The notes under the pieces are model-generated. The model saw nothing but the letters and a program-made list of their open reading frames with translations. It was not told where the DNA came from and searched no databases. From Candidatus Methylacidiphilum fumarolicum (GTDB lineage: Bacteria; Verrucomicrobiota; Verrucomicrobiia; Methylacidiphilales; Methylacidiphilaceae), in the NCBI RefSeq assembly GCF_949774925.1, contig NZ_OX458932.1:1798001-1862000 (forward strand): a stretch of 64,000 nucleotides of DNA, read 5' to 3'. A program made the translations under genes and the position numbers. Shown in pieces: positions 11,384-45,335 of this stretch (the first letter of the stretch is position 1; each line of letters starts with the position of its first letter).

Positions 11384-11750
11384 TCACCTAATAACACAGA
11401 AGGGACGGATCCAAAGTACTGGCTTACGATAGAAATGGCCGGCTGCCGTGGCAAACTCTCTGCGGAAAGGATTGAAAGAAGTTGTCTTAAGACTCTTTAC
11501 GAAGCAGCTGTGTTCAAGATTTGGTGGCAAAGCAAGCAGCAAGTGAAGGGGATCCGATTCTCCCTTGAACTCAATCAACTGTCCGCCCTCTCCCTCCCAG
11601 CGCATTTTAGCCATACTATGCACACAGCCAAGCATTAGGAGAGTTATCGCCTTGTGGCGGTATTTTGATACAAGCACTAAATGATAGGGCACGCGTTAAC
11701 GCATGGAGGCAAAACGTGTCAACGGACTGGAACTTGCATTTCACTAAATG
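11384..11750 (-). pseudogene. tnpA: Broken IS200/IS605 transposase TnpA
   Basis: The relic reads YHLVLVSKYRHKAI ... MRWEGEGGQL ... GESDPLHLLLALPPN, which aligns along its length with the intact TnpA at 45336-45752. The HUH metal motif (HVHLL in the intact copy) has become PLHLL, so one catalytic histidine is lost. The frame stops before the segment with the nucleophilic tyrosine (YIERQ in the intact copy), and the N-terminus is out of frame. It cannot be active. Confidence 0.8.
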
Positions 11751-11799
11751 TCCACTTTTCAGCGTTGTCCTATGAGCATTGCTCCACCCGTTGGTCTTC

Positions 11800-13150
11800 T
11801 CGTGCTTGACCCCGTTGAACACAAGGTTACCTACCAACACTATCCTTCCAAGGCCGTCCGGGATGAGCTTTTTCTGACTCGCTCGGGGGCATTGCTTCCT
11901 CTGGAAGCTGAATCTCGATGAGCGCAGGCGAGCATGGAAGGAGGAAAAGCGAGGTGCCTGTTTTTTCCGAGCAGGGCCGATTGGCTCACTGTCCTCCGCT
12001 CCCAAAACGCGCTTCTCTCCTCAATCAATGCTCTATCCCTCTAGGTAACGTTCAGGAGGCTGGACCACGTATTCCAGTCGCTCTTCCGTCACATCCGGCA
12101 AGGCAAAAAGCCCGGATTTCCCCTTTCCAACAGGCAGAGCGATTCAGCGGCTTTGGCTTCCAGCAGCACGAAGACGACTGGCGGCTGCTCACAAAAGACC
12201 AAAGCTCTCACCGGAAGCTCCCTCTCTCCGGCATCGGGGGGATCCGGATCCGGGGCAAGCTCTTTGCTCCCAAAGAACCCAGAAGATACGAGATATTTCT
12301 TTCCGGCGGCAAATGGCATGCGTCGGTCACGACACGCTGCCGGCCGCTGCCGAGAGCATGGAGCTGGTGCTGCGGCTTTCGAGTTGGGCAGGGAGCAGTT
12401 CCTAACCAGCGCCTCATTGAAGACAGAGAAAAGCGAGCCGGTCGTTTCCGAGGGAACCAATAAGCGGTATTTGCACAAGGCGCTCAAGAGGCTTAAGGAA
12501 GCTTTCGAGAACGATCTTCTGAAAGATAGAAGCGGCAATCAGCAACCAGGGGAAACGGGAAGGATTTCATGTATCCAAGAGGCTGTGGGAGCAGTGCGGA
12601 CAGCTCGGCTGGATGGAGGCCAAGGTGGCGAATGTTAGGAAGGATTTCCTGCACAAGCAGAGTGCCGCGATGGTGGGACGTAGTGGCCTATTGATCACAG
12701 AGGCGCTGGAGCCGAAAAGGATGAGGGTTTTAGCCAGAGGTAGCCTGGTAAAGCTGAGGAAAACAGGTTCGGCAAAAAGCTAGATGAAATCGAGAGAGGT
12801 TGGATGTGTCGTTTGGAGCTTTCAGATCGATGGTCAGAGACACAGCGGAAGTGGCTCATATCGGAAGCTGGAAGCACAGGCAAGGATGTTGGAACCAAGT
12901 TAGAGATGCAACCGAGGCGGCGGTATTGTGAAAAAGACTCTAGGGTGACCGGTGGCATGAGTGGTAGGGCATCCAGCCATCAGGACAAGAAATCGGCGCG
13001 CGGGGCTCTTCGATTGTGGCTTGGCGAAATGGATAAAAAACCACGACTTCGTCTTTCCAGGGGCCGAAGGTCGCTGGATACGGAAAGGAATGGACGAAAA
13101 AACCGATCCATGCGTGGAGCGGGTAACTCTAGTCCTAGAGCCGTTAGGCT
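11800..13150 (+). pseudogene. tnpB: Broken TnpB, IS605 type
   Basis: Fragments in all three plus frames align in order with the TnpB at 43779-45314: KVTYQHYPSKAVRDEL (from 11823), WLTVLRSQNALLSSIN (about 11980), FQSLFRHIRQGKKPGFP (about 12080), FSGFGFQQHEDDWR (12150), VARKDFLHKQSAAMV near 12640, ALEPKRM near 12710, and a zinc-ribbon and DRDENS-like relic near 12930-13010. Several indels and stops separate the pieces. At 11970-11980 it keeps CGAT where the second copy has TGA, which helps to interpret the stop there. Confidence 0.8.
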
Positions 13151-13167
13151 TGAATAGAGTATTCATC

Positions 13168-14379
13168 AAACAGAAAAAGATAAAGAACTAGCCCTTTACT
13201 AACCCTTCCTTAATAAGGCCAAGACTTCTCGGGATAAAAAGACTGACTAGCATTCATTCCCACTAGATCGCCGTTTACAACCAAAAATCCGATGGACTTG
13301 CCCCTTTCACAATCATTCAAAAGGTTTATCATTCTTAACATGCAACTATGTTTTGTTGGATCCAGGGCTGCTAATAAAATGGAAAAAATTCGTTCAAGGA
13401 TTCATACTTCTTAGCACGTAACCATTCTATTGGAGAGGTCTCATCGTCAGTTGCTGATAAAATGATGAGCGTGCCCCAAAAACCAACGCGACACGCTAAA
13501 AAATCCTAGTAAAACTGGGGAATAGAGACTTCGGAGTCTCCGTAAAAATTTCTATCATTAGCTTTTTCTATTGCCGAGGAGATTGCTTGTGCAGGAAACA
13601 GCCTTCTAAAGCATAACTACTTTTCCTATGCGCTTATCATCAAGCTATGACCTCCCGACTCAAACTCTTTTGTGCAAATTTCAAATAATAAAATGCCTCT
13701 CCTTTAATTAACGAATACAAATCTTCAAAACACTTCCTATCCTTTGTTGGATTTATGTAACTACATAGTCCTCCCTTTATTGTAGATCGTAAAGTAAAGG
13801 CCTGAAGAACTATCGTATAGATATTTCCTAGCTAGACTTAAAGATTCGGCTAAATGAAGCTCATGGCCATGAAGCCCTTTATAAAGCTTCTTACATACAG
13901 ATTACGTGTCACAAAATAAAAAAAATGACCTTCCTTTGGATCTTCTTCCCTTTACGACGGAATAGAAGATAGCCTGTCAATTACTGGATAATAATAACCC
14001 AATCCAAAACTAAACCCATTGGCATAAGCCAAAATTCCTTGTATACCCCTGAAATTACAACTCCAAATTCCCTTTGGCTTAGCTAATTAGCTTCTCCTGT
14101 TGATCGTGGAAATGGCGGTGGATTGAATACATTATAGGGTTTTTCTGCTTAATAAGAAAGAAACCTTTCCAATAATGTATATCATTGGTTATCTAAACTC
14201 ATTACTCTTATCCATGTACAATATTAAAATAGTACTAACGAAAACTGAAAAAAATCCATTCGTTCGTTGGCGCATGCATTTTTAAGTCTTCATTCAATAA
14301 ATTCTTCTGACTTTTCTTTTATTGGCAAACCTAAACAAAGTTTCTTTTTCCTATTAATAATAGTGCAAGAGAATAGGAA
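13168..14379. other. Long gene-free stretch before the A/B array
   Basis: In about 1.2 kb of A+T-rich sequence I find no coding frame with family resemblance and no tRNA or rRNA. One compact hairpin stands out at 13525-13540 (GAGACT-TCGG-AGTCTC, a perfect stem with a stable tetraloop); it is not followed by a T-run, so it is not a standard terminator. The last 50 bases contain TTCTTTTTCCTATTA (14343-14357), a string that recurs in the leader of every later array unit, so the duplicated segment begins about here. Confidence 0.45.
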
Positions 14380-15981
14380 ATGAGCGGAAAAAGGTTTTTT
14401 ATTTTCTCTTTTTTTATTTTTCTTTTTTTTACTCTTCCTGCCTACTCTCAACAACAAGGCTATCAACCCAATGGGTCCCTTTCAGGGATCGATCCAAGTC
14501 TTGGTCCACTTATTCAAAAAGTTTTTCAGTTTGGTCAGCAAGCTAGAGAAGAAGGTGAGCAGATTGCCGTAAGCATCGCCCCCTTTCTATTTTTCATGGC
14601 CGCAGCCATTGGAGGATTTCGAGTGGCCTTCGGAAGGCCCATTATCGATGAACTCATCGATTATACCATCCATGCGGTCGTGATTTGGATCGTTGTGTAT
14701 GCACAATTTCCTCAGCACCTTATTGATGCCGCCAGGCAAGCATTAATTCAAGGTGGACTTAACTGGGGGCATCAAATCGCTAACCTTGCCTTTGATCCGC
14801 CTGCAGGAAGTACCCCAACGCAATGGTGGATATGTTGGATCCATGTGCCTCCATCCAGTGGAATTGGGGCTGTGGCATCTCCAGGAGGAGTGTGTCCGGG
14901 CAATATCGCCGATTTTAAATTTGGACCGATCTTTGTAAGCCGCATGTTTGGACTAGCCAATAATTTGGCGATTTTTAATCCAGTAGTCTACAAATATCTC
15001 AATCAAGCCTTTCAGGGACTTCTCTCATGGATGGCCATGATGCCAAATGACATCAGTCCGGTTGCTTCTCAAACTGTCACTGCCATGCAGATCTGGGCAA
15101 TCCCTCTTATGACTTCTATCGGCTGGGTATTTGCTCTAGTCTTAACAGCGGCTCTCCTGTGCATTGGAGCTATCTTCACCATCATCTTTAGCCAGATTAT
15201 ATTGCTTGGGGGCAGTGAGGCAGCCTATCAAGCCTTGACCGGTTTTGGGATTGCTCTGGTCCCATTGACTTTCTTTGCTTCCTTCCGTGGACTCTGGAGG
15301 CCAATGCTTATAGGCCTAGTCGCCGTATCAATCGTCCCACCCCTTTACTGCATCCTTGCCGGACTTGGTTATATGATGGCAGACATCATTTTTAACACCC
15401 TCTTTGGCATTAGTGTCAGTGGGGATATGGGCTTTGTAGCGGGTGCAACAACTCTAGGAGCCATGGTCCCAATGATCATTGAAGCAACCATCGGCTGGCC
15501 TATTAACGGACTTAGCCTTTCCAACCTTTTTGGAGGCAGTGAAGGCGGCTTTTCCAGTCTCTTACAAGTCTTTCTCCAATCCATTCTTACCAATAACGGT
15601 GCCACAGGAGGGGTCCCTATTCAACAATGCCTAGAACAAGGGGCTACGGCTAAAAGCTCTTTTTTGTGTGCTGTGGTCTATACCATTCTAGGGTTTTTGC
15701 AGGCTTCAGGAGCTTGGGTGCTCTACTCCCTAGGCATCAACATTGTGGCCGCTTTTATCTATGCTGGTTCTATGTTCCCTCTTGTTGCCGTACGAGTTGC
15801 GTATGGATGGTCTTTAGCCTTCTCTGACATGGCTGGGGCCTTGCTGGAAGGCTTTAGCGGGCATTTCGGTAGGGTGCACGGGGCAAGCATGGAAGGACTC
15901 CAGGGTGTGGGACAGAATATCCAAACCCGAGTAGGAGGCATCGTAAGAGCAATTGCTGGAAAGGACCCCCGCGTCCCATGA
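14380..15981 (+). CDS. Family A, full copy: polytopic membrane protein, VirB6/TrbL-like
   Basis: The only complete family member, 533 residues. A signal peptide (1-24, TLPAYSQQQ) is followed by hydrophobic segments near residues 64-82, 94-110, 238-276, 283-300, 309-335, 350-370, 427-441 and 447-485. The arrangement (secreted N-terminus, central multi-helix core, Gly/Ala-rich segments, soluble tail) recalls VirB6/TrbL inner-membrane components of type IV secretion channels. This is a fold-level guess, without diagnostic motifs. The ribosome-binding site is AGGAA before the ATG. The stop overlaps the start of the next gene (ATGA), so translation is likely coupled. Confidence 0.8.
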   Translation: MSGKRFFIFSFFIFLFFTLPAYSQQQGYQPNGSLSGIDPSLGPLIQKVFQFGQQAREEGEQIAVSIAPFLFFMAAAIGGFRVAFGRPIIDELIDYTIHAVVIWIVVYAQFPQHLIDAARQALIQGGLNWGHQIANLAFDPPAGSTPTQWWICWIHVPPSSGIGAVASPGGVCPGNIADFKFGPIFVSRMFGLANNLAIFNPVVYKYLNQAFQGLLSWMAMMPNDISPVASQTVTAMQIWAIPLMTSIGWVFALVLTAALLCIGAIFTIIFSQIILLGGSEAAYQALTGFGIALVPLTFFASFRGLWRPMLIGLVAVSIVPPLYCILAGLGYMMADIIFNTLFGISVSGDMGFVAGATTLGAMVPMIIEATIGWPINGLSLSNLFGGSEGGFSSLLQVFLQSILTNNGATGGVPIQQCLEQGATAKSSFLCAVVYTILGFLQASGAWVLYSLGINIVAAFIYAGSMFPLVAVRVAYGWSLAFSDMAGALLEGFSGHFGRVHGASMEGLQGVGQNIQTRVGGIVRAIAGKDPRVP

Positions 15982-16640
15982 CGATCCTGCTTTCCTTTTT
16001 TTTCCTTTATTATTACATTGAATCAACACATACCTATGCCAAGCTCTTCCTAACTAGGGAGAAAACCTACCCATATGTCCTAAGTCCCCATGTCTTCTTT
16101 GATCAAAAAGTAATTTACAATTGCAATGAAATGTCAAACGCACATATTCCCGAAGATCCCAGGTATCCTGCGGTATGGGCCAGGGCTTGGATTAATGGCC
16201 ATCCACTAAGCATGAAAAAATACACTAGAGCGCAAGCAGCATCTATGAGAGTCCGTAATGTTTCTCGTCATTCGAAATACGTCTGGCTTTCTAACCACTA
16301 TGAAGGTAGCGGAGAACTACATAAACAGGCGGAGTTTGTCGTGCTGCCGGCAGAAGGCACTCAAAAAATAGATGAATACATCTGTATTTTACACTGGGAT
16401 GATCTTGATCGTCCAATCGAAGAAGTAACCTTTACGATGGATCTTGGGGCCATCACCATGGCTATTCCTGGCATCGGTAGACAAAATAATCCTTATTATG
16501 TTCAGTGGCTCTATGGCACGTTTTTTAGGCTAGAACCTCCCGGTTACCAAAGAGTCGGGAGTACTGTCAGCTGGCGCTGGACCCATATCCCAAGGATTGA
16601 CCAAAAAATCCGCATCCAATGGTATGCCTGGTATAGATGA
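15978..16640 (+). CDS. Family B copy 1: small membrane-anchored protein
   Basis: A 220-residue protein of unknown function. One hydrophobic N-terminal segment (residues 3-15) acts as signal or anchor, followed by a probably extracytoplasmic domain. Segments nearly identical in all copies: STHTYAKLFLTREKTYPY, IPEDPRYPAVWARAWINGHP, GELHKQAEFVVLPAE, EEVTFTMDLGAITMAIPGIG, PYYVQWLYGTFFRLEPPGYQ and the C-terminal QWYAWYR. Between them lie short variable stretches; here DQKVIYNCNEMSN, AASMRVRN, NHYEGSG and HWDDLD. The start overlaps the full A gene by ATGA. I do not recognise the family. Confidence 0.8.
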   Translation: MTILLSFFFLYYYIESTHTYAKLFLTREKTYPYVLSPHVFFDQKVIYNCNEMSNAHIPEDPRYPAVWARAWINGHPLSMKKYTRAQAASMRVRNVSRHSKYVWLSNHYEGSGELHKQAEFVVLPAEGTQKIDEYICILHWDDLDRPIEEVTFTMDLGAITMAIPGIGRQNNPYYVQWLYGTFFRLEPPGYQRVGSTVSWRWTHIPRIDQKIRIQWYAWYR

Positions 16641-16754
16641 ATGGATCTTATCTCGGCTCTTCGCTTCAGAAGAAATCAGAGTTTCTAATAATGTTTTTGA
16701 TTTCAATGCAAGGCTCTTATCCCTTTTTATAGTGTCTTTTTTAAACTATGACAC

Positions 16755-16772
16755 AGGCATTGTAAAATGCCT
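16755..16772 (+). promoter_or_regulatory. Unit leader hairpin 1
   Basis: AGGCATT-GTAA-AATGCCT, a perfect 7-bp stem with a 4-base loop, located between B copy 1 and the next A gene. It is kept in all five inter-unit leaders while nearby bases vary. No T-run follows, so it is more likely a regulatory or processing element than a plain terminator. Confidence 0.5.
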
Positions 16773-16889
16773 CCGTTTGTAGATGCCTAACTCAGTCAGG
16801 AAAGTTAAAAGAAAAATCTCTTTGTTTTCCTTTCATTGGTCAAGTCTTTCCCTTCTTTTTCCTATTACTAGTTCTATACACCGTAATCA

Positions 16890-16976
16890 ATGAATAAAAT
16901 ATGTCTTTTTGTTTTTTTCTTCTATCCTTTTCCCTCCCTTTTTTTCTGGCATCCCCAGGAGGAGTATGTCCGATGA
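16890..16976 (+). CDS. Possible leader peptide upstream of short A copy
   Basis: A 28-codon frame starting MNKICLFVFFFYPFP and ending with a TGA that overlaps an ATG of the A frame (ATGA at 16973-16976). AGGAGG at 16957-16962 precedes that internal ATG by ten bases. The same ATG serves as the actual start of the medium A genes (MNKIPGN). The arrangement suggests termination-reinitiation coupling, but the frame could also be a by-product of the way the leader was joined. The same frame exists upstream of the A copies at 18443 and 21961. Confidence 0.35.
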   Translation: MNKICLFVFFFYPFPSLFFWHPQEEYVR

Positions 16977-17503
16977 ATATAGCCGATTTTAAATTTGGAC
17001 CGATCATTGAAGCAACCATCGGCTGGCCTATTAACGGACTTAGCCTTTCCAACCTTTTTGGAGGCAGTGAAGGCGGCTTTTCCAGTCTCTTACAAGTCTT
17101 TCTCCAATCCATTCTTACCAATAACGGTGCCACAGGAGGGATCCCTATTCAACAATGCCTAGAACAAGGGGCTACGGCTAAAAGCTCTTTTTTGTGTGCT
17201 GTGGTCTATACCATTCTAGGGTTTTTGCAGGCTTCCGGAGCCTGGGTGCTCTACTCCTTAGGCATCAACATTGTGGCCGCTTTTATCTATGCTGGTTCGA
17301 TGTTCCCTCTTGTCGCCGTACGAGTTGCGTATGGATGGTCTTTAGCCTTCTCTGATATGGCTGGTGCCTTGCTTGAAGGCTTTAGCGGGCATTTCGGTAG
17401 GGTGCATGGGGCAAGCATGGAAGGGCTCCAGGGTGTGGGACAGAATATCCAAACCCGAGTAGGAGGCGTCTTAAAAGCCATTGTTGGAAAGAAAATCGAT
17501 TAA
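16901..17503 (+). CDS. Family A, short copy 2
   Basis: A 200-residue derivative of the full A protein. It keeps the equivalents of residues 166-184 and 367-533 and lacks 182 codons between them. The join FGPI-IEAT falls on a GATC present at both break points of the full gene (14928 and 15474). From ATG 16901 the product gains a new hydrophobic leader (SFCFFLLSFSLPFFLASPGG) that looks like a signal peptide. The internal ATG 16973 with AGGAGG is an alternative start. It reads GGIPIQQ where the others have GGVPIQQ and ends LKAIVGKKID. The B start follows 25 bp after the stop. Confidence 0.65.
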   Translation: MSFCFFLLSFSLPFFLASPGGVCPMNIADFKFGPIIEATIGWPINGLSLSNLFGGSEGGFSSLLQVFLQSILTNNGATGGIPIQQCLEQGATAKSSFLCAVVYTILGFLQASGAWVLYSLGINIVAAFIYAGSMFPLVAVRVAYGWSLAFSDMAGALLEGFSGHFGRVHGASMEGLQGVGQNIQTRVGGVLKAIVGKKID

Positions 17504-17528
17504 AAGCCATTATTGGAAAGGAATCTTG

Positions 17529-18185
17529 GTGACGATCCTGCTTTGCTTTTTTTTCCTATATCATTACATCGAATCCACCCATACCTATGCCAAGCTATTT
17601 CTGACAAGGGAGAAAACCTACCCGTATGCCCTACGCCCGCATGTCTTCATTGATCAAAAAGTAATTGCTTATACCAATCAAGAGAGACTAGCCTATATTC
17701 CGGAAGATCCCAGGTATCCTGCGGTATGGGCCAGGGCTTGGATTAAGGGCCATCCGTTGAGTATGAAAAAATACACTAGAACACATGCTGCCGGGATGGG
17801 TCTTGTAGTTTCTCAACATTCGAAATACATCTGGCTTTCGAAAGAAAATATACCTGATGGTGAACTTCATAAACAGGCGGAGTTTGCCGTACTGCCAGCA
17901 GAAGGCACTCAAAAAATAGATGAATATGTCTGTATTTTAAACTGGGAGTCAGACCGGCCCATTGAAGAGGTAACCTTTACGATGGATCTTGGGTCTATCA
18001 CCATGGCTATTCCTGGCATCGGTAGACAAAATAACCCTTATTATGTTCAGTGGCTCTATGGCACGTTTTTTAGACTAGAACCTCCTGGCTACCAAAGAGT
18101 CGGTAGCACCGTCAACTGGCGCTGGTCTAATATCCCAAGGATTGACCAAAAAATTCGCATCCAATGGTATGCCTGGTATAGATGA
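17529..18185 (+). CDS. Family B copy 2
   Basis: Start set at GTG 17529 (MTILLCFFFLYHY), which matches the other copies and gives 218 residues; the frame is open further upstream to TTG 17481, but that part overlaps the A gene. The usual ATGA overlap is lost because a short sequence, AAAAGCCATT(G/A)TTGGAAAG, is duplicated in tandem at the A/B border (from about 17473 and 17503). Variable stretches: DQKVIAYTNQERL, THAAGMGLV, KENIPDG, NWESD. It has AWIKGHP instead of AWINGHP and VNWRWSNIP near the end. Confidence 0.75.
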   Translation: MTILLCFFFLYHYIESTHTYAKLFLTREKTYPYALRPHVFIDQKVIAYTNQERLAYIPEDPRYPAVWARAWIKGHPLSMKKYTRTHAAGMGLVVSQHSKYIWLSKENIPDGELHKQAEFAVLPAEGTQKIDEYVCILNWESDRPIEEVTFTMDLGSITMAIPGIGRQNNPYYVQWLYGTFFRLEPPGYQRVGSTVNWRWSNIPRIDQKIRIQWYAWYR

Positions 18186-18299
18186 ATGGATCTCGTCTTG
18201 GCTTTCCGCTTCCTAAAAATCAGAGTTTGTAATAATGTTTCTGATTTCAAAGCAAGGCTCTTATCACTTTTTTATAGTGTCTTTTTTAAACTATGACAT

Positions 18300-18317
18300 A
18301 GGCATTGTAAAATGCCT
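18300..18317 (+). promoter_or_regulatory. Unit leader hairpin 2
   Basis: Same AGGCATT-GTAA-AATGCCT stem-loop as in the other leaders. The flanks (GACATAGG, CTACGTTTGTGG) are the variant also found in leader 4, whereas leaders 1, 3 and 5 have GACACAGG and CTCCGTTTGTAG. Confidence 0.5.
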
Positions 18318-18442
18318 ACGTTTGTGGACGCATAACTCAGGCAGGAAAGTTGAAAAAAATACCTTTATTTTCCTTTCATCGGTCCAGCCTTCCCTTCTTT
18401 TTCCTATTACTAGTTCTATACACCGTAATAAATGAATAAAAT

Positions 18443-19051
18443 ATGTCTTTTTGTTTTTTTCTTCTATCCTTTTCCCTCCCTTTTTTTCTGGCATCCCCAG
18501 GAGGAGTATGTCCGATGAATATAGCCGATTTTAAATTTGGACCGATCATTGAAGCGACCATCGGCTGGCCTATTAACGGACTTAGCCTTTCTAACCTTTT
18601 TGGAGGCAGTGAAGGCGGCTTTTCCAGTCTCTTACAAGTCTTTCTCCAATCCATTCTTACCAATAACGGTGCCACAGGAGGGGTCCCTATTCAACAATGC
18701 CTAGAACAAGGGGCTACGGCAAAAAGCTCTTTTTTGTGTGCTGTGGTCTATACCATTCTAGGGTTTTTGCAGGCTTCCGGAGCCTGTGTGCTCTACTCCT
18801 TAGGCATCAACATCGTGGCCGCGTTTATCTATGCGGGATCAATGTTTCCTCTTGTCGCCGTACGAGTTGCGTATGGATGGTCTTTAGCCTTCTCTGACAT
18901 GGCTGGTGCCTTGCTGGAAGGCTTTAGCGGGCATTTCGGTAGGGTGCACGGGGCAAGCATAGAAGGGCTCCAGGGTGTGGGACAGAATATCCAAACCCGA
19001 GTAAGAGGCGTCGTAAGAGCCATTATTGGAAAGGATGGTCCCCACGAATGA
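18443..19051 (+). CDS. Family A, short copy 3
   Basis: A 202-residue short form with the same GATC join as copy 2, so both descend from one deletion event. It has SGACVLY where full and medium copies have SGAWVLY, a change shared only with the short copy at 21961. The tail is RGVVRAIIGKDGPHE. The stop overlaps the next B gene (ATGA). Upstream leader frame and AGGAGG-preceded internal ATG are the same as in copy 2. Confidence 0.65.
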   Translation: MSFCFFLLSFSLPFFLASPGGVCPMNIADFKFGPIIEATIGWPINGLSLSNLFGGSEGGFSSLLQVFLQSILTNNGATGGVPIQQCLEQGATAKSSFLCAVVYTILGFLQASGACVLYSLGINIVAAFIYAGSMFPLVAVRVAYGWSLAFSDMAGALLEGFSGHFGRVHGASIEGLQGVGQNIQTRVRGVVRAIIGKDGPHE

Positions 19052-19704
19052 TGATCCTGATTTCCTTTTTTTTCCTCTATCATTACATCGAATCGACCCA
19101 TACCTATGTGAAGCTCTTCCTGACGAGAGAAAAAACCTATCCGTATGCTCTAAGCCCGCATATCTTCTTTGATCAAAAAGTAATTTCTAATTCCAATCAA
19201 GGGCACCACGCCTATATTCCGGAAGATCCCAGGTATCCAGCGGTATGGGCCAGGGCTTGGATCAACGGCCATCCATTGAGCATAAAAAAATACACTAGAG
19301 CTCAGGCAGCGGAGTCCGGCTTTGTTTCACGTTATTCTAAATACGTCTGGCTTTCTAACTACTATGAAGAAAATGGAGAACTCCATAAACAAGCAGAGTT
19401 TGTCGTACTGCCAGCAGAAGGCATTCAAAAAATAGATGAATATGTCTGTATTTTAAACTGGGAGGATGTTGATCGGCCCATTGAAGAGGTGACCTTTACA
19501 ATGGATCTTGGGGCTATCACCATGGCTATTCCTGGCATAGGTAGACAAAATAACCCTTATTATGTTCAATGGCTCTATGGGACGTTTTTTAGACTAGAAC
19601 CTCCTGGCTACCAAAGAGTCGGTAGCATCGTCAGCTGGCGCTGGACCCATATCCTAAGGATTGACCAAAAAATCCGTATCCAATGGTATGCGTGGTATAG
19701 ATGA
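19048..19704 (+). CDS. Family B copy 3
   Basis: A 218-residue copy starting MMILISFFFLYHY. Variable stretches: DQKVISNSNQGHH, QAAESGFVSRY, NYYEENG, NWEDVD. It is almost identical to copy 4 two kb further on, so one was recently copied from the other. Small differences are EGIQKID, VGSIVSW and HILRIDQ. Confidence 0.78.
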   Translation: MMILISFFFLYHYIESTHTYVKLFLTREKTYPYALSPHIFFDQKVISNSNQGHHAYIPEDPRYPAVWARAWINGHPLSIKKYTRAQAAESGFVSRYSKYVWLSNYYEENGELHKQAEFVVLPAEGIQKIDEYVCILNWEDVDRPIEEVTFTMDLGAITMAIPGIGRQNNPYYVQWLYGTFFRLEPPGYQRVGSIVSWRWTHILRIDQKIRIQWYAWYR

Positions 19705-19817
19705 ATGGATCTTTTCTCGACTCTTCGATTCAAAAAAACCAGAGTTTCTAATAATGTTTTTGATTTCAATGCAAGGCTCTTATCCCTTTTTATAGTGTCT
19801 TTTTTAAACTATGACAC

Positions 19818-19835
19818 AGGCATTGTAAAATGCCT
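19818..19835 (+). promoter_or_regulatory. Unit leader hairpin 3
   Basis: Same AGGCATT-GTAA-AATGCCT stem-loop, with the GACACAGG/CTCCGTTTG flank variant. It stands upstream of a medium A copy, so the hairpin does not depend on the type of A gene that follows. Confidence 0.5.
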
Positions 19836-19952
19836 CCGTTTGTAGATGCCTAACTCAGTCAGGAAAGTTAAAAGAAAAATCTCTTTGTTTTCCTTTCATT
19901 GGTCCAGTCTTTCCCTTCTTTTTCCTATTAAAAGTTCTATACACCCTAATAA

Positions 19953-21050
19953 ATGAATAAAATACCTGGCAATATCGCCGATTTTAAATTTGGAGCGATC
20001 TTTGTAAGTCGCATGTTTGGACTAGCCAATAATTTGGCGATCTTTAATCCTGTGGTCTACAAATATCTCAATCAAGCTTTTCAGGGGCTTCTCTCATGGA
20101 TGGCTATAATGCCAAATGACATCAGTCCGGTTGCTTCTCAAACCGTCACTGCCATGCAGATCTGGGCAATCCCCCTTATGACTTCTATCGGCTGGGTATT
20201 TGCTCTTGTTTTAACAGTAGCTCTCCTTTGCATTGGAGCCATCTTCACCATCATCTTTAGCCAGATTATATTGCTTGGGGGCAGTGAGGCAGCCTATCAA
20301 GCCTTGACTGGTTTTGGCATTGCGCTGGTCCCATTGACTTTCTTTGCTTCCTTCCGTGGACTCTGGAGACCCATGCTTATAGGCCTAGTTGCCGTATCAA
20401 TCGTCCCAGCCCTTTACTGCATCCTTGCTGGACTAGGTTACATGATGGCAGACATCATTTTTAACACCCTCTTTGGCATTAGTGTCAGTGGGGATATGGG
20501 CTTTGTAGCGGGTGCAACCACCCTAGGAGCTATGATTCCTATGATCATTGAAGCAACCATCGGCTGGCCTATTAACGGACTTAGCCTTTCTAACCTTTTT
20601 GGAGGCAGTGAAGGCGGCTTTTCCAGTCTCTTACAAGTCTTTCTCCAATCCATTCTTACCAATAACGGTGCTCCAGGAGGGGTCCCTATTCAACAATGCC
20701 TAGAACAAGGGGCTACGGCTAAAAGCTCTTTTTTGTGTGCTGTAGTTTATACTATTCTAGGGTTTTTGCAGGCTTCAGGAGCCTGGGTGCTCTACTCCTT
20801 AGGCATCAACATCGTGGCCGCTTTTATCTATGCTGGTTCAATGTTCCCTCTTGTCGCCGTACGAGTCGCTTATGGGTGGTCTTTAGCCTTCTCTGACATG
20901 GCTGGGGCCTTGCTGGAAGGCTTTAGCGGGCATTTCGGTAGGGTGCACGGGGCAAGCATAGAAGGGCTCCAGGGTGTGGGACAGAATATCCAAACCCGAG
21001 TAAGAGGCGTCGTAAGAGCCATTATTGGAAAGGATGATCCCCACAAATGA
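19953..21050 (+). CDS. Family A, medium copy 4
   Basis: A 365-residue form that starts MNKIPGNIADFKFGAIF and continues as the full protein from about residue 174. It lacks the signal peptide and first two hydrophobic segments and keeps the whole helical core. Sequence-specific marks are FGAIF, MAIMPND, NNGAPGG and VPALYC (the full copy has VPPLYC). The start lies in the leader, directly joined to A sequence. The stop overlaps the B start by ATGA. Confidence 0.72.
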   Translation: MNKIPGNIADFKFGAIFVSRMFGLANNLAIFNPVVYKYLNQAFQGLLSWMAIMPNDISPVASQTVTAMQIWAIPLMTSIGWVFALVLTVALLCIGAIFTIIFSQIILLGGSEAAYQALTGFGIALVPLTFFASFRGLWRPMLIGLVAVSIVPALYCILAGLGYMMADIIFNTLFGISVSGDMGFVAGATTLGAMIPMIIEATIGWPINGLSLSNLFGGSEGGFSSLLQVFLQSILTNNGAPGGVPIQQCLEQGATAKSSFLCAVVYTILGFLQASGAWVLYSLGINIVAAFIYAGSMFPLVAVRVAYGWSLAFSDMAGALLEGFSGHFGRVHGASIEGLQGVGQNIQTRVRGVVRAIIGKDDPHK

Positions 21051-21703
21051 TGATCCTGCTTTCCTTTTTTTTCCTTTATAATTACATCAAATCAACGCAT
21101 ACCTATGCCAAGCTCTTCTTGACGAGAGAAAAAACCTATCCGTATGCTCTAAGCCCGCATATATTCTTTGATCAAAAAGTAATTTCTAATTCCAATCAAG
21201 GGCACCACGCCTATATTCCGGAAGATCCCAGGTATCCAGCGGTATGGGCCAGGGCTTGGATTAACGGTCATCCCCTGAGCATAAAAAAATACACTAGAGC
21301 TCAGGCAGCGGAGTCCGGCTTTGTTTCACGTTATTCTAAATACGTCTGGCTTTCTAACTACTATGAAGAAAATGGAGAACTCCATAAACAAGCAGAGTTT
21401 GTCGTACTGCCAGCAGATGGCACTCAAAAAATAGATGAATATGTCTGTATTTTAAACTGGGAGCATGTTGATCGGCCCATTGAAGAGGTGACCTTTACGA
21501 TGGATCTTGGGGCCATCACCATGGCTATTCCTGGAATCGGTAAACAAAATAACCCTTATTATGTTCAGTGGCTCTATGGCACGTTTTTTAGACTAGAACC
21601 TCCTGGCTACCAAAGAGTCGGCAGCACCGTCAGCTGGCGCTGGACCCATATCCAAAGGATTGACCAAAAAATTCGCATCCAATGGTATGCTTGGTATAGA
21701 TGA
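21047..21703 (+). CDS. Family B copy 4
   Basis: A 218-residue near-duplicate of B copy 3, with the same first three variable stretches (DQKVISNSNQGHH, ESGFVSRY, NYYEENG) and NWEHVD instead of NWEDVD. The anchor reads MMILLSFFFLYNYIKS. Differences from copy 3 near the end are VGSTVSW and HIQRIDQ. Confidence 0.78.
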   Translation: MMILLSFFFLYNYIKSTHTYAKLFLTREKTYPYALSPHIFFDQKVISNSNQGHHAYIPEDPRYPAVWARAWINGHPLSIKKYTRAQAAESGFVSRYSKYVWLSNYYEENGELHKQAEFVVLPADGTQKIDEYVCILNWEHVDRPIEEVTFTMDLGAITMAIPGIGKQNNPYYVQWLYGTFFRLEPPGYQRVGSTVSWRWTHIQRIDQKIRIQWYAWYR

Positions 21704-21817
21704 ATGGATCTTTTCTCAGCTCTTCGATTCAGAAGAATCAGAGGTTCTAATAATGTTTTTGATTTCAAAGCAAGGCTCTTATCACTTTTTTATAGTGTCT
21801 TTTTTAAACTATGACAT

Positions 21818-21835
21818 AGGCATTGTAAAATGCCT
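21818..21835 (+). promoter_or_regulatory. Unit leader hairpin 4
   Basis: Same AGGCATT-GTAA-AATGCCT stem-loop, with the flanks of leader 2. It is part of the block at about 21753-22522 that duplicates 18235-19004. Confidence 0.5.
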
Positions 21836-21960
21836 ACGTTTGTGGACGCATAACTCAGGCAGGAAAGTTGAAAAAAATACCTTTATTTTCCTTTCATCGG
21901 TCCAGCCTTCCCTTCTTTTTCCTATTACTAGTTCTATACACCGTAATAAATGAATAAAAT

Positions 21961-22563
21961 ATGTCTTTTTGTTTTTTTCTTCTATCCTTTTCCCTCCCTT
22001 TTTTTCTGGCATCCCCAGGAGGAGTATGTCCGATGAATATAGCCGATTTTAAATTTGGACCGATCATTGAAGCGACCATCGGCTGGCCTATTAACGGACT
22101 TAGCCTTTCTAACCTTTTTGGAGGCAGTGAAGGCGGCTTTTCCAGTCTCTTACAAGTCTTTCTCCAATCCATTCTTACCAATAACGGTGCCACAGGAGGG
22201 GTCCCTATTCAACAATGCCTAGAACAAGGGGCTACGGCAAAAAGCTCTTTTTTGTGTGCTGTGGTCTATACCATTCTAGGGTTTTTGCAGGCTTCCGGAG
22301 CCTGTGTGCTCTACTCCTTAGGCATCAACATCGTGGCCGCGTTTATCTATGCGGGATCAATGTTTCCTCTTGTCGCCGTACGAGTTGCGTATGGATGGTC
22401 TTTAGCCTTCTCTGACATGGCTGGTGCCTTGCTGGAAGGCTTTAGCGGGCATTTCGGTAGGGTGCACGGGGCAAGCATAGAAGGGCTCCAGGGTGTGGGA
22501 CAGAATATCCAAACCCGCGTAGGAGGCATCGTAAGAGCAATTACTGGAAAAGGCTCACAATGA
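21961..22563 (+). CDS. Family A, short copy 5
   Basis: A 200-residue short form, identical to short copy 3 through most of its length (including SGACVLY) up to QTRV. It then switches to GGIVRAITGKGSQ, close to the tail of the full copy (GGIVRAIAGKDP). The exchange point near 22515 suggests recombination between units. The stop overlaps the next B start (ATGA). Confidence 0.65.
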   Translation: MSFCFFLLSFSLPFFLASPGGVCPMNIADFKFGPIIEATIGWPINGLSLSNLFGGSEGGFSSLLQVFLQSILTNNGATGGVPIQQCLEQGATAKSSFLCAVVYTILGFLQASGACVLYSLGINIVAAFIYAGSMFPLVAVRVAYGWSLAFSDMAGALLEGFSGHFGRVHGASIEGLQGVGQNIQTRVGGIVRAITGKGSQ

Positions 22564-23213
22564 CGATCCTGCTTTCCTTTTTTTTCCTTTATAATTACAT
22601 CAAATCAACGCATACCTATGCCAAGCTCTTCCTGACGAGAGAAAAAACCTACCCATATGCCCTAAGCCCCCATGTCTTCTTTGATCAAAAAGTAATTACT
22701 TATGATCAAGGGGGATTCGCTTATATTCCGGAAGATCCCAGGTATCCTGCGGTATGGGCCAGGGCTTGGATTAACGGTCATCCCCTGAGCATGAAAAAAT
22801 ACACTAGAGGGCAAGCAGCCGGGATGGGGCATTTAGTTTCTCGACATTCGAAATACGTCTGGCTTTCTAACCACTATGAAGGTAGCGGAGAACTACATAA
22901 ACAGGCGGAGTTTGTCGTGCTGCCGGCAGAAGCTACCCAAAAAATCGATGAATACGTCTGTATTTTAAATTGGGAGCCAGACCGGCCCATTGAAGAGGTG
23001 ACCTTTACGATGGATCTTGGAGCCATCACCATGGCTATTCCTGGAATCGGTAGACAAAATAACCCTTATTATGTTCAGTGGCTCTATGGCACGTTTTTTA
23101 GGCTAGAACCTCCCGGTTACCAAAGAGTCGGGAGTACTGTCAGCTGGCGCTGGACCCATATCCCAAGGATTGACCAAAAAATCCGCATCCAATGGTATGC
23201 CTGGTATAGATGA
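22560..23213 (+). CDS. Family B copy 5
   Basis: A 217-residue copy with variable stretches DQKVITYDQGGF, GQAAGMGHLV, NHYEGSG and NWEPD. It is a mosaic: the middle (NHYEGSG) and the last 60 residues with the following leader match copy 1, the DQGGF segment matches copy 7, and the anchor (LYNYIKS) matches copy 4. Confidence 0.78.
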   Translation: MTILLSFFFLYNYIKSTHTYAKLFLTREKTYPYALSPHVFFDQKVITYDQGGFAYIPEDPRYPAVWARAWINGHPLSMKKYTRGQAAGMGHLVSRHSKYVWLSNHYEGSGELHKQAEFVVLPAEATQKIDEYVCILNWEPDRPIEEVTFTMDLGAITMAIPGIGRQNNPYYVQWLYGTFFRLEPPGYQRVGSTVSWRWTHIPRIDQKIRIQWYAWYR

Positions 23214-23327
23214 ATGGATCTTATCTCGGCTCTTCGCTTCAGAAGAAATCAGAGTTTCTAATAATGTTTTTGATTTCAATGCAAGGCTCTTATCCCTTTT
23301 TATAGTGTCTTTTTTAAACTATGACAC

Positions 23328-23345
23328 AGGCATTGTAAAATGCCT
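23328..23345 (+). promoter_or_regulatory. Unit leader hairpin 5
   Basis: Same AGGCATT-GTAA-AATGCCT stem-loop; the leader is the same as leader 1 (identical block 16597-16782 and 23170-23355), although the A genes that follow are of different types. Confidence 0.5.
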
Positions 23346-23462
23346 CCGTTTGTAGATGCCTAACTCAGTCAGGAAAGTTAAAAGAAAAATCTCTTTGTTT
23401 TCCTTTCATTGGTCAAGTCTTTCCCTTCTTTTTCCTATTACTAGTTCTATACACCCTAATAA

Positions 23463-24557
23463 ATGAATAAAATACCTGGCAATATCGCCGATTTTAAATT
23501 TGGACCGATCTTTGTAAGTCGTATGTTTGGACTAGCCAATAATTTGGCGATCTTTAATCCAGTGGTCTACAAATATCTCAATCAAGCCTTTCAGGGACTT
23601 CTCTCATGGATGGCCATGATGCCAAATGACATCAGTCCGGTTGCTTCTCAAACTGTCACTGCCATGCAGATCTGGGCAATCCCTCTTATGACTTCTATCG
23701 GTTGGGTATTTGCTCTAGTCTTAACAGCGGCTCTCCTGTGCATTGGAGCTATCTTCACCATCATCTTTAGCCAGATTATATTGCTTGGGGGCAGTGAGGC
23801 AGCCTATCAAGCCTTGACTGGTTTTGGCATTGCTCTGGTCCCATTGACTTTTTTTGCTTCCTTCCGTGGACTCTGGAGACCCATGCTTATAGGCCTAGTT
23901 GCCGTATCAATCGTCCCAGCCCTTTACTGCATCCTTGCTGGACTTGGTTATATGATGGCAGACATCATTTTTAACACCCTCTTTGGCATTAGTGTCAGTG
24001 GGGATATGGGCTTTGTAGCGGGTGCAACAACTCTAGGAGCCATGGTCCCAATGATCATTGAAGCGACCATCGGCTGGCCTATTAACGGACTTAGCCTTTC
24101 CAACCTTTTTGGAGGCAGTGAAGGCGGCTTTTCTAGTCTCTTACAAGTCTTTCTCCAATCCATTCTTACCAATAACGGTGCCACAGGAGGGGTCCCTATT
24201 CAACAATGCCTAGAACAAGGGGCTACGGCTAAAAGCTCTTTTTTGTGTGCTGTGGTCTATACCATTCTAGGGTTTTTGCAGGCTTCAGGAGCTTGGGTGC
24301 TCTACTCCTTAGGCATCAACATCGTGGCCGCGTTTATCTATGCTGGTTCAATGTTCCCTCTTGTCGCCGTACGAGTTGCGTATGGATGGTCTTTAGCCTT
24401 CTCTGATATGGCTGGTGCCTTGCTTGAAGGCTTTAGCGGGCATTTCGGTAGGGTGCATGGGGCAAGCATGGAAGGGCTCCAGGGTGTGGGACAGAATATC
24501 CAAACCCGAGTAAGAGGCGTCGTAAGGGCTTTAACCAAAGGAAATATTGAGGGATAA
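23463..24557 (+). CDS. Family A, medium copy 6
   Basis: A 364-residue medium form starting MNKIPGNIADFKFGPIF. It is closer to the full copy than medium copy 4 is (MAMMPND, NNGATGG), but has VPALYC as in copy 4. The tail is RGVVRALTKGNIEG. The stop is TAA and the next B gene begins 17 bp later, so the ATGA overlap is absent in this unit. Confidence 0.72.
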   Translation: MNKIPGNIADFKFGPIFVSRMFGLANNLAIFNPVVYKYLNQAFQGLLSWMAMMPNDISPVASQTVTAMQIWAIPLMTSIGWVFALVLTAALLCIGAIFTIIFSQIILLGGSEAAYQALTGFGIALVPLTFFASFRGLWRPMLIGLVAVSIVPALYCILAGLGYMMADIIFNTLFGISVSGDMGFVAGATTLGAMVPMIIEATIGWPINGLSLSNLFGGSEGGFSSLLQVFLQSILTNNGATGGVPIQQCLEQGATAKSSFLCAVVYTILGFLQASGAWVLYSLGINIVAAFIYAGSMFPLVAVRVAYGWSLAFSDMAGALLEGFSGHFGRVHGASMEGLQGVGQNIQTRVRGVVRALTKGNIEG

Positions 24558-24574
24558 TTAGACAATTTTTCCCA

Positions 24575-25231
24575 ATGATTATCCTGTTTTCTTTCTTTTT
24601 TCTTTATTGGTACTTCGAATCAACCCATACCTATGTCAAGCTCTTCCTGACGAGGGAGAAAACCTACCCATATGTCCTAAGTCCTCATGTCTTCTTTGAT
24701 CAAAAAGTTGTTTTTAAATGCAATGAAGGTTTCAACGCCTATATTCCGGAAGATCCCAAGTATCCTGCGGTATGGGCCAGGGCTTGGATTAATGGTCATC
24801 CGCTGAGCATGAAAAAATATAATGCCCAGCAAGCATCTATGATAGTCCGTTATGTTTCTCGCCATTCGAAATATGTCTGGCTTTCTAGAGAAAACATACC
24901 CGATGGAGAACTCCATAAACAAGCAGAGTTTGTCGTACTGCCAGCAGAAGGCGCTCAAAAAATAGATGAATACATCTGTATTTTGCACTGGGAGTCAGAT
25001 CGGCCCATTGAAGAGGTGACCTTTACAATGGATCTTGGGGCTATCACCATGGCTATTCCTGGAATCGGTAAACAAAATAACCCTTATTATGTTCAGTGGC
25101 TCTATGGCACGTTTTTTAGACTAGAACCTCCTGGCTACCAAAGAGTCGGTAGCATCGTCAGCTGGCGCTGGACCCATATCCCAAGGATAGATCAGAAAAT
25201 CCGCATCCAATGGTATGCCTGGTATAGATGA
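24575..25231 (+). CDS. Family B copy 6
   Basis: A 218-residue copy starting MIILFSFFFLYWYFES. Variable stretches: DQKVVFKCNEGFN, YNAQQASMIVRYV, RENIPDG and HWESD. ENIPDG is shared with copy 2, and HW with copy 1. The usual long leader does not follow; instead a short, T-rich 98-bp spacer leads to B copy 7. Confidence 0.78.
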   Translation: MIILFSFFFLYWYFESTHTYVKLFLTREKTYPYVLSPHVFFDQKVVFKCNEGFNAYIPEDPKYPAVWARAWINGHPLSMKKYNAQQASMIVRYVSRHSKYVWLSRENIPDGELHKQAEFVVLPAEGAQKIDEYICILHWESDRPIEEVTFTMDLGAITMAIPGIGKQNNPYYVQWLYGTFFRLEPPGYQRVGSIVSWRWTHIPRIDQKIRIQWYAWYR

Positions 25232-25329
25232 TTTTTTTTATGCTTCCTTCCACTCCCAATACCACACTACCTAATAATGAGTTGAGTCCCAACCGACCTA
25301 TGATTAACTCTCCATAGGAAAGACCACCC

Positions 25330-25983
25330 ATGACGATTCTGCTTTCCTTTTTTTTCCTTTATAATTACATCGAATCAACCCATACCTATGTCAAGCTCTT
25401 CCTAACGAGGGAGAAAACCTACCCGTACACCCTACGCCCGCATGTCTTCTTTGATCAAAAAGTAGTTGCTTATGACCAAGGGGGATTCGCCTATATTCCG
25501 GAAGATGCCAGGTATCCTGCGGTTTGGGCCAGGGCTTGGATCAACGGCCATCCGCTGCTCATGAAAAAATACACTAGCGCGCAAGCAGCCGAGGCGGGTC
25601 ATCTAGTTTCTCGTCATTCGAAATATGCCTGGTTTTCTAACCTCTATGAAGGTAGCGGAGAACTCCATAAACAAGCGGAGTTTGTCGTACTGCCAGCAGA
25701 AGACACTCAAAAAATCGATGAATACATCTGTATTTTAAATTGGCAGTCAGACCGGCCAATCGAAGAGGTAACCTTCACGATGGATCTTGGGACCATTATC
25801 ATGGCCATTCCAGGCATCGGTAAACAAAATAGCCCGTATTATGTCCAGTGGCTCTATGGCACTTTTTTTAGGCTAGAACCTCCTGGCTACCAAAGAGTCG
25901 GTAACACCGTCAGCTGGCGTTGGTCCAAGATCCCAAGGATTGATGAGAAAATCCACATCCAATGGTATGCCTGGTATAGATGA
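25330..25983 (+). CDS. Family B copy 7, without A partner
   Basis: A 217-residue copy that has no A gene before it, only a 98-bp spacer with a Shine-Dalgarno-like ATAGGAAAG. Variable stretches: DQKVVAYDQGGF, SAQAAEAGHLV, NLYEGSG, NWQSD. It has most changes in otherwise fixed segments (EDARYPA, HPLLMKK, AWFSN, GTIIMAIPGIGKQNSP, IDEKIHIQ), so it may be an older or relaxed copy. It ends the array; the next gene converges from the other strand. Confidence 0.78.
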   Translation: MTILLSFFFLYNYIESTHTYVKLFLTREKTYPYTLRPHVFFDQKVVAYDQGGFAYIPEDARYPAVWARAWINGHPLLMKKYTSAQAAEAGHLVSRHSKYAWFSNLYEGSGELHKQAEFVVLPAEDTQKIDEYICILNWQSDRPIEEVTFTMDLGTIIMAIPGIGKQNSPYYVQWLYGTFFRLEPPGYQRVGNTVSWRWSKIPRIDEKIHIQWYAWYR

Positions 25984-26036: not shown

Positions 26037-27272
26037 TTATGGTACTTTTTCTTTAGAGGTATCTTTTTCTTTTTGTTTCTTACCATCCGATAAGGAAAGA
26101 GGATAACGCATCTGAGATTTTGTTTGTATTTGTATCCCGTGGGTTATCGCTTTTTGTAAGCCTTTCTGACTTTCAAACACATAATCTGTGGGATAATTTC
26201 TAAATTCATCCGTATACGCATCAGCAGTAACGACATAGGGGAAACCTGCTTTCTTCAGTTCCTCGGAAAGATCAGTGTTTCTTGTTTTCCATTCTCCCAA
26301 ATGGTAAGCTCCTCCCCAATGGATCACTCTGGCACCTGGATAATAAAAAGATCTAGTTTCTGCCACTTTTTTAATGCTGCATGGACCATATTTATGATCC
26401 TTTTTTAACTCTAGGGTTCCAGACATCCTTTGATCCCTATAATTCAAAAATTCAGGGTTCATGTCTGCTTCTATGATAATGTTTCCACTATCGATATCTC
26501 CTAATTTTTGATAGCATCGAACTACAAGGCTTTTATCCCTCCGCTGCATTTTCGCTATACTATCCAGTTGCTTTAAGAAGAGATCCTGGGAATCATGTAA
26601 AAAAATTCCTTCTTTTTGAAGTGCCTCGGCTAGTTTCTTTTTAAGACTCTCTTTTGGGCTTTTCTCAAGCAAAGCACTTTTCCTTGCTTTCTTTAGGTAC
26701 TCCTCAATAGGCTGTTGGCAGGATTCAGGCAAACCTATTCTAAGAAATAGATTTCCTTTTTTCGCCTGTTCTTTCAGTTCTTTCGTGCTAATGTCCACCG
26801 CATAGACCTGCAAATTTCCATGGTTTAGAACATTATGCTTTACTGCCTCTCTGATTACATCGGCATAATTAGGCATACCTTTAATCGGTCCTATTTCCCC
26901 AGTGTCTTTCGCCCCAGTTCTTTTTTCCACTAAATACCATTGGTTTGTATCCCTTTTGAAATAATACTTTTCCATCTCATAAGGTGAGAGAAGAGCAGGG
27001 TTTCTTTTTGTCATTTTATAGAGCAGTTTTGCTTCCAATCGATCGACTCTTTTTTCAGCTTCTTGCATATCTAATTTATGCTCGTTAGCCTTTTCATAGA
27101 TCTGACTAGCTTTCCGCATAAAATGTTGGATTAGGGGATTAAAATCCCTTGAAAGTTCCAAGGCTATAACAAAGCCTTGTTGATCAAGTTGAGGAAGGGT
27201 CTTTATTAAGGACTTATGATGATTCTTAGTGTGGATCTCACCCACAAGGACCGCTAAATCTCTTCTTTTCAT
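26037..27272 (-). CDS. Tiki/ChaN-like protein (EreA/ChaN superfamily), putative
   Basis: A 411-residue cytoplasmic protein without a signal peptide. It shows the sparse signature of the EreA/ChaN/TraB-Tiki superfamily: VLVGEIHTKNHH near the start, ALELSRDF at about residue 37, and IHWGGAYHLGEW at about 315, a pattern of Glu-His and Gly-x-His motifs that forms a metal site in known members. The middle contains a Lys/Glu-rich helical insertion (about 75-105 and 190-230), and the tail is strongly charged. The substrate is unknown. It converges on the A/B array. Confidence 0.5.
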   Translation of the reverse strand: MKRRDLAVLVGEIHTKNHHKSLIKTLPQLDQQGFVIALELSRDFNPLIQHFMRKASQIYEKANEHKLDMQEAEKRVDRLEAKLLYKMTKRNPALLSPYEMEKYYFKRDTNQWYLVEKRTGAKDTGEIGPIKGMPNYADVIREAVKHNVLNHGNLQVYAVDISTKELKEQAKKGNLFLRIGLPESCQQPIEEYLKKARKSALLEKSPKESLKKKLAEALQKEGIFLHDSQDLFLKQLDSIAKMQRRDKSLVVRCYQKLGDIDSGNIIIEADMNPEFLNYRDQRMSGTLELKKDHKYGPCSIKKVAETRSFYYPGARVIHWGGAYHLGEWKTRNTDLSEELKKAGFPYVVTADAYTDEFRNYPTDYVFESQKGLQKAITHGIQIQTKSQMRYPLSLSDGKKQKEKDTSKEKVP

Positions 27273-27349: not shown

Positions 27350-28039
27350 CTAAGGAGACTTGGTAAGACTAAACTGTAATTCGACTAGCCTATTTGCTAT
27401 GAATTTACATCTTAGAGGAGACGGTGTTATATATTGTTCTTTGCTGATAGAGATTGGATAGGGTATCAATAAAGAGCCATTCTTCTCCAGAAACTTTCTC
27501 TTAAGCCCATAGGCTTTTATGATATCTTCAGGACTAAACTTCACTTTACTTCCATCAAAAGTTATAACGACATTTTGCTTCTTCTCAATGCAACTAATTG
27601 ATAAGCGATTTGGATTTTTCTCCAGGATAAGCATCCACCCCCCCAAATCTCCTATCGGAGTTTCATATTCTTCATCTTTTGTGTAGTCAACCGCTACAAT
27701 TTCTCTTATGGCTCGATCAACTGTACTTGGACAATCATAAGTGTAAACTGATTTTCTAGTTCGAATTTCACAATAATCATGCCCTTTTTGTATGACTTTC
27801 GGACGGGAAGAATATTTTTGAACCCTAAAGATTCTGTTATCCTCTGTTATTTTATATAAATTATCCGGAAAATAATATGTTATTGCTTTAACAAGACTTT
27901 TAAAGTCTTCGATATCCATCGATTGTTTTCTTATTAAATTTAAAAGCTTGGTTTCAGCGTCTAGGAGTTCTATGGTGCCAAGAAAAAAAAGAAAAAAGAA
28001 AACCATCCGTTTCTCACAAAACAAGTTCAATATTCTCAT
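27350..28039 (-). CDS. Secreted protein of unknown function
   Basis: A 229-residue product from ATG 28039 (an upstream TTG at 28060 is also in frame). The N-terminal signal is MVFFFLFFLGTIELLDAET at about residues 12-30. The rest has no motif known to me; cysteines near CEIRTRKS, YDCPST and SCIEKK could form disulfides. It lies 77 bp upstream of the Tiki/ChaN-like gene on the same strand, so the two may form an operon. Confidence 0.6.
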   Translation of the reverse strand: MRILNLFCEKRMVFFFLFFLGTIELLDAETKLLNLIRKQSMDIEDFKSLVKAITYYFPDNLYKITEDNRIFRVQKYSSRPKVIQKGHDYCEIRTRKSVYTYDCPSTVDRAIREIVAVDYTKDEEYETPIGDLGGWMLILEKNPNRLSISCIEKKQNVVITFDGSKVKFSPEDIIKAYGLKRKFLEKNGSLLIPYPISISKEQYITPSPLRCKFIANRLVELQFSLTKSP

Positions 28040-28299
28040 ATCTATTTTATAGGTTCCCAATTCTATAAGAGAACCTCCCTAGGTCTGTTTTTTTTCTGTT
28101 TTATCCCCACATCTGTAGCCCTCAAGTCATATGAGACCAGCCCAAACAATTTAGGTTTTTCAGAGAGCTATTTATTAGCTAAGAAAAGAAGTAACTGAAG
28201 GTCTATCTACTTCCCTCCGTCTAATCAAAAGTTTCAAGAGTTCTTAAGTAAGAGATGAAAAGAAATTTCACTTTTCACTTGATTAGAGAACAGGGGCTT

Positions 28300-45314: not shown

Positions 45315-45335
45315 TATGGTCTATCATTTAGTGTA

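Follow-up and report, generated by a model that had tools for sequence, protein, structure and literature searches.

A tandem array of truncated subunit genes and intact small-protein genes in Candidatus Methylacidiphilum fumarolicum and its predicted link to a chromosomal type IV secretion system

The A/B array of M. fumarolicum

The genome of Candidatus Methylacidiphilum fumarolicum, a single contig of 2,476,671 bp, contains within bases 1,798,001-1,862,000 (a stretch of 64,000 nucleotides, referred to below as the window) a tandem array of two kinds of gene, termed A and B. The open reading frame (ORF) list bore out the alternation of six A and seven B genes described in an earlier note on this DNA, all of them on the plus strand between positions 14,380 and 25,983 of the window (Table 1), and a repeat search returned six to seven copies with 77-100% nucleotide identity at a spacing of 1.5-2.0 kb. 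Each of the seven B genes is intact, and the A genes comprise one full-length, two medium and three short forms. The conserved leaders that the note had described were present before units 2-6 (261 nt, 89-99% identity) and absent before A1 and before B7, which stands alone at the array end with no A partner. No occurrence of the 261-nt leader was found in the rest of the M. fumarolicum genome or in 12 relatives, and promoter and terminator scans reached chance level only. That the array could be an assembly artefact was ruled out, because the copies differ (synonymous divergence, dS, of 0.16-0.6 for B and 0.05-0.2 for A), the genome forms one contig, and PacBio reads went into finishing the published M. 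fumariolicum SolV genome (PMC4210602).

Residues 1-172 of A are missing from the medium forms A4 and A6 (364-365 aa), and the short forms A2, A3 and A5 consist of about residues 165-183 followed by the C-terminal 168 residues, the result of a clean and exact in-frame deletion of 546 bp joined at a GATC/GATC microhomology. Five of the six A copies have lost one third or more at the N terminus, and the copies are 91-97% identical to one another. Two candidate starts were noted for the short forms; in A2, the one at 16901 gives a signal-like N terminus and the one at 16973 follows an AGGAGG. The start codon of B lies inside the stop codon of A (ATGA) in units 1, 3, 4, and 5, and a putative ribosome-binding site for B (GGAAAGGA-like) was recognized within the last codons of A in several units. 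The B proteins are 217-220 aa long, carry an N-terminal hydrophobic segment, and are probably exported.

Between the units, the leader and A are nearly uniform, and B is diversified and recombined, with every copy open and the genes under purifying selection. Within the same units, the mean dS was 0.145 for the A C terminus vs 0.41 for B, with B the higher in 15 of 15 pairs, and the ratio of nonsynonymous to synonymous divergence (dN/dS) for pairs of B copies was 0.12-0.30. Recombination among the B copies was detected with the pairwise homoplasy index (PHI, P = 0.0005), and their amino acid differences cluster at about residues 42-60 and 84-118 (two loops). Both recombination and excess divergence, the marks of a variable-gene repertoire, were therefore found for B.

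Protein A and the chromosomal type IV secretion system

The closest named relative of A is that of Methylacidiphilum sp. Yel (96% identity). Neither A nor B gave a usable match in Pfam, NCBIfam, PADLOC, PHROGs, or PDB sequences; A was not found in phage and plasmid collections, and a survey of 388 genomes from the phylum located it only within its own family, the Methylacidiphilaceae. Several hydrophobic segments are present in every A orthologue, as befits a polytopic protein, and A would be placed in the inner membrane.

The A orthologue of the sister genus (42-45% identity) sits between a MoxR-type AAA gene and the gene for a 559-aa exported coiled-coil protein; next in the operon stand genes for a protein of 210 aa and a membrane protein of 130 aa, then one for a VirD4/TraG-type ATPase (PF12696, 8e-9; also PF02534). 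The corresponding block is found in M. fumarolicum at 1.342-1.352 Mb without A, and in a relative (G010; 2,202,032 bp) the slot between the AAA and coiled-coil genes measures only ~0.4 kb. A has therefore moved away from this slot, left empty in the Methylacidiphilum block, to a site now ~450 kb from the type IV secretion system (T4SS) cluster of the genome. In addition, the VirB4 operon is headed by the gene for a 455-aa polytopic protein, A', which was homologous to A by profile comparison (97.8%, E 1e-12; controls against an unrelated polytopic family gave <0.2%). Among the 13 genomes of the family, A is missing only in one from the sister genus (G007), which also has no VirB4, VirD4, or coiled-coil protein. 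Because of the sister-genus synteny, the homology to A', and the co-occurrence with VirB4 and VirD4 across the 13 genomes, A is identified at the level of gene content and order as a predicted T4SS membrane component that has left its ancestral operon slot, the M. fumarolicum A itself lying outside the cluster.

The earlier note had termed A VirB6/TrbL-like from its topology. The part of this claim that stood is that of a polytopic T4SS membrane protein; membership in PF04610 did not, and A is VirB6/TrbL/DotA-like by position, topology, and company, not by family membership. It resembles the VirB6, TrbL, TraG-N, and DotA proteins in being polytopic, in having orthologues accompanied by a VirD4-type ATPase and a homologue in a VirB4/VirB2 operon, and in co-occurring with VirB4. 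Unlike them, it has neither PF04610 nor TrbL profile similarity, is encoded outside the T4SS cluster in Methylacidiphilum, and is present in truncated tandem copies. An AlphaFold model of A, built from a shallow alignment, was all-helical with a predicted local distance difference test (pLDDT) value of 34, which gives no confidence.

The T4SS cluster of M. fumarolicum spans 1.333-1.375 Mb and encodes a VirB4-class ATPase (PF19044, 3e-23), VirD4 (PF02534, 1e-10), TrbI/VirB10 (PF03743, 4e-19), and a GspE/VirB11-class ATPase (PF00437, 2.6e-84) that is closer to GspE/PilB than to VirB11, together with a VirB2-like pilin (1e-4, under Pfam's cut-off) and small pilus-assembly-like proteins and lipoproteins. 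The cluster is largely conserved in three genera of the Methylacidiphilaceae. The statement in the earlier note that no other secretion gene is near the array holds for the window; within the genome, a full T4SS cluster is located ~440-480 kb away. Two genome papers (PMC4210602, PMC6688271) mention no secretion systems in these organisms, and the present comparison uncovers a chromosomal T4SS shared across this family of verrucomicrobial methanotrophs.

Several candidate observations on these genes were rejected. Displacement of A on account of a dead T4SS was discarded, as none of VirB4, VirD4, VirB10, and the GspE-type ATPase is damaged and all four are conserved. The A gene of one relative (G008), reported as broken by one stop, has a complete 531-aa frame. 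A match to A at 1.5297 Mb of genome G000 gained no confirmation from a second search of the region and was treated as chance. The sister-genus coiled-coil protein, which by eye seemed VirB5/TrbJ-like, received no support in profile comparison with verrucomicrobial VirB5-like proteins.

Possible roles of B

Copy numbers, whose comparison across related strains the earlier note had proposed, revealed separate B expansions in M. fumarolicum and in a relative of a second species (G009; 2,287,145 bp). In the B tree, the seven M. fumarolicum copies form one group (86/89) and the three G009 copies another (88/100), so the expansions were separate or concerted. The G009 genome has one full A gene and two 3'-fragments of A (~103 residues). 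In a third genus (G012, loci L077 and L140), A homologues without the N-terminal part are located on contigs with arrays of a lipoprotein, E, which is unrelated to B and is present in 8 or 9 divergent copies alternating with, or placed after, the truncated A homologues. As the pattern is seen in M. fumarolicum, in G009, and in the third genus, forms of A are repeatedly found co-amplified with a small exported protein, and only the small protein is amplified intact.

Further members of the B family were located. A paralogue is present in the T4SS region at 1.333 Mb, and a B-family gene at 2030895-2031548 (2.031 Mb; locus L110 9893-10552) has an internal stop and is apparently decaying. In one sister-genus genome (G002), four tandem B-family genes (locus L071 6675-10076) lie ~3.4 kb from the A orthologue.

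To speak of an amplified VirB6 array would mislead, since A is whole in a single copy and truncated in five, and it is B that is amplified intact and diversified. For the same reason, the dosage-amplified channel component that the earlier note had offered as one option is unlikely, and its other option, a variable surface or exclusion system, appears the better of the two. Our preferred reading, held tentatively, is that the B proteins are diversified exported partners of the T4SS subunit A, perhaps entry-exclusion-like. Exclusion provides the best precedent for B: TraS and Eex act on the VirB6-class protein TraG, and ExcA on TraY, and the exclusion genes adjoin those of their targets (PMC11493245, PMC12624023). 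In the present case, B overlaps or follows each A, and in the third genus the lipoprotein gene alternates with A. Like the TraG/TraS pair of F, the TraG/Eex pairs of SXT/R391 and IncC, and the TraY/ExcA pair of IncI, the array therefore joins a small exported or membrane protein, as the variable partner, to a VirB6-class gene. Unlike those pairs, the A/B array is chromosomal, has many copies, encodes a B protein that is mostly predicted beta, and belongs to a family without PF03432 relaxase.

A, a relocated T4SS component, became coupled in Methylacidiphilum to the small exported protein B, and tandem duplication then multiplied B along with pieces of A, giving seven intact B copies; gene conversion may keep the leader and A uniform. 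On the preferred reading, full-length A would be a VirB6/DotA-like stalk or channel subunit of the inner membrane, and B, located in the membrane or the periplasm with its translation coupled to that of an A form, would be its variable recognition partner. The likeliest role would be self recognition of an entry-exclusion-like kind: the B proteins, perhaps retained by truncated A forms, would engage the A-type subunit when a sibling system comes in and so block injection, several B variants providing several specificities. It could also be that the locus is a chromosomal recognition locus, for exclusion or kin discrimination, made of a displaced T4SS subunit, truncated decoy forms, and recombining exported partners, which arose repeatedly in one family with unrelated partners (B and the lipoprotein E); this wider claim is considered rather unlikely. 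At any rate, a T4SS membrane subunit has left its operon and has repeatedly seeded tandem arrays in which variable small exported proteins join it. If such partners set specificity against sibling T4SS machines, they would offer a testable case of exclusion outside plasmids, and the natural truncated forms of A could be used for dissecting a VirB6-class subunit.

A number of observations weigh against the preferred reading. No PF04610 (TrbL/VirB6) match was obtained for A, in the M. fumarolicum genome, or in the family, and hhalign of A against three verrucomicrobial TrbL proteins was negative (0.2%). The AlphaFold model of B is weak and mostly beta (mean pLDDT 53), and Foldseek gave no match to it below 1e-3. 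B is absent from G008 and G012, both of which keep A and VirB4, and several B-family genes are kept in the sister-genus genome G007 in spite of its having no matches to A, VirB4, or VirD4; B is therefore accessory and no obligate T4SS part. The ratio of nonsynonymous to synonymous differences (pN/pS) in the B loops reaches ~0.8 and never exceeds 1 and so gave no sign of positive selection, and gene conversion from full-length A could account partly for the constraint on the truncated forms. Finally, no PF03432 relaxase was found in the 13 family genomes, other relaxase families not having been searched, and conjugation, hence classical entry exclusion, is therefore not established. Separately, Foldseek matches of the B model to aminopeptidase N-type domains (E >= 0.0095, TM-score ~0.3) were not used.

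The strongest rival explanation, which is doubtful and still has to be taken seriously, is that B alone is selected, as a repertoire that varies at the surface or in the periplasm and has nothing to do with the channel role of A, and that the A fragments are carried along as translational leaders. Breakpoints would then have fallen inside A because its 3' end carries the ribosome-binding site of B and the ATGA coupling. Every A fragment, including the ~103-residue fragments of G009, indeed keeps the A 3' end directly upstream of B, with the GGAAAGGA-like motif ahead of B in several units; M. fumarolicum and G009 each have a single full-length A, and B persists in G007 without this T4SS. The C termini of the truncated A forms, significantly below neutrality in most pairs, are also less constrained (dN/dS 0.1-0.3) than the full A gene between species (about 0.05). 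However, the core of the medium forms is held at a dN/dS of 0.02-0.05, a constraint like that of the full gene and far past the needs of a leader; the 546-bp deletion of the short forms is exactly in frame, and the third genus amplified pieces of A with a different partner. The constraint on medium A argues against the fragments being mere leaders, though conversion from A1 could lend part of it. The array resembles orphan immunity and variable-antigen arrays in that intact paralogues for a small exported protein stand in tandem, recombine, and have variable loops, and differs from them in that B is interleaved with pieces of a secretion gene and that no toxin, switching site, or expression locus was identified.

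Two further explanations were considered. The A/B cassettes might be interchangeable stalk and tip components by which the T4SS switches partner or substrate, as with the virB2 and virB6 alleles of the Rickettsiales. Anaplasma has VirB6 and VirB2 genes in multiple copies and expresses them (PMC7648143), and the B copies are diverse and recombining; but five of the six A forms are missing at least their N-terminal third, B is dispensable in G008 and G012, and A copies as similar as those described above stand against a difference of ~80% among rickettsial VirB6 duplicates (PMC2653234), which makes interchangeable modules improbable. The array shares with the amplified virB6 genes of Rickettsia, Anaplasma, and Wolbachia the several tandem copies of a polytopic T4SS subunit. 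In those organisms, the copies lie in the vir operon and are very divergent and extended (PMC2653234, PMC7648143), whereas the A copies hardly differ from one another, are for the most part truncated, alternate with B, and lie at a distance from other T4SS genes, in a host that is a free-living thermoacidophile; the Rickettsiales arrangement of highly divergent copies in a vir operon was thus not found for A. Dosage amplification, or neutral tandem duplication with no specific function, is also quite unlikely. Recombination readily produces tandem arrays, and repeats abound in the SolV genome (PMC4210602), but 13 of 13 genes are open although the dS of B reaches 0.6, purifying selection is significant in most copy pairs, and expansions recur in other lineages. 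Under a need for dosage, moreover, one would expect the A genes to be whole and the B genes to be identical.

Surroundings of the array

Table 1. Features of the A/B array and its flanks (window positions)
Feature	Position	Strand	Basis or occurrence
A1, full-length polytopic membrane protein, 533 aa, signal-peptide-like N terminus, several transmembrane segments	14380..15981	+	ORF, orthologues, T4SS context
B1, small, probably exported protein, 220 aa, ATGA overlap with A1 stop	15978..16640	+	
Leader of unit 2, 261 nt, repeated before units 3-6	16640..16900	+	
A2, short; without N-terminal part and residues 184-365 of A; alternative ATG 16973 behind AGGAGG	16901..17503	+	
B2, GTG start; TTG at 17481 also possible	17529..18185	+	
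Leader of unit 3	18185..18442	+	
A3, short; alternative ATG 18515	18443..19051	+	
B3	19048..19704	+	
Leader of unit 4	19704..19952	+	
A4, medium; residues 173-533 of A	19953..21050	+	
B4	21047..21703	+	
Leader of unit 5	21703..21960	+	
A5, short; alternative ATG 22033	21961..22563	+	
B5	22560..23213	+	
Leader of unit 6	23213..23462	+	
A6, medium	23463..24557	+	
B6	24575..25231	+	
B7, no A partner, no leader	25330..25983	+	
Gene of 411 aa, very weak ChaN/Tiki-like match, flanks array	26037-27272	-	
Gene of 236 aa, flanks array	27350-28060	-	
Divergent B paralogue, 48% identity	28955..29668	+	Also beside array in G010, Yel, G009

The 411-aa flanking gene was found beside A in four of four relatives and the 236-aa gene in three of four. 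The pair of 411-aa and 236-aa genes is also tandemly duplicated at 1.527-1.534 Mb of the genome (locus L111 7152-9082 and 11482-13412). ORFs resembling IS200/IS605-type transposases are present in GC-rich stretches at window positions 11600-13200 and 43779-45752; the former stretch lies directly upstream of the array, and its transposase-like ORF is broken. Two 178-aa ORFs are located on the minus strand at 36526-37062 and 41869-42405 of the window, 5.3 kb apart, and their listed first 60 residues are identical, which suggests a recently duplicated or mobile element.

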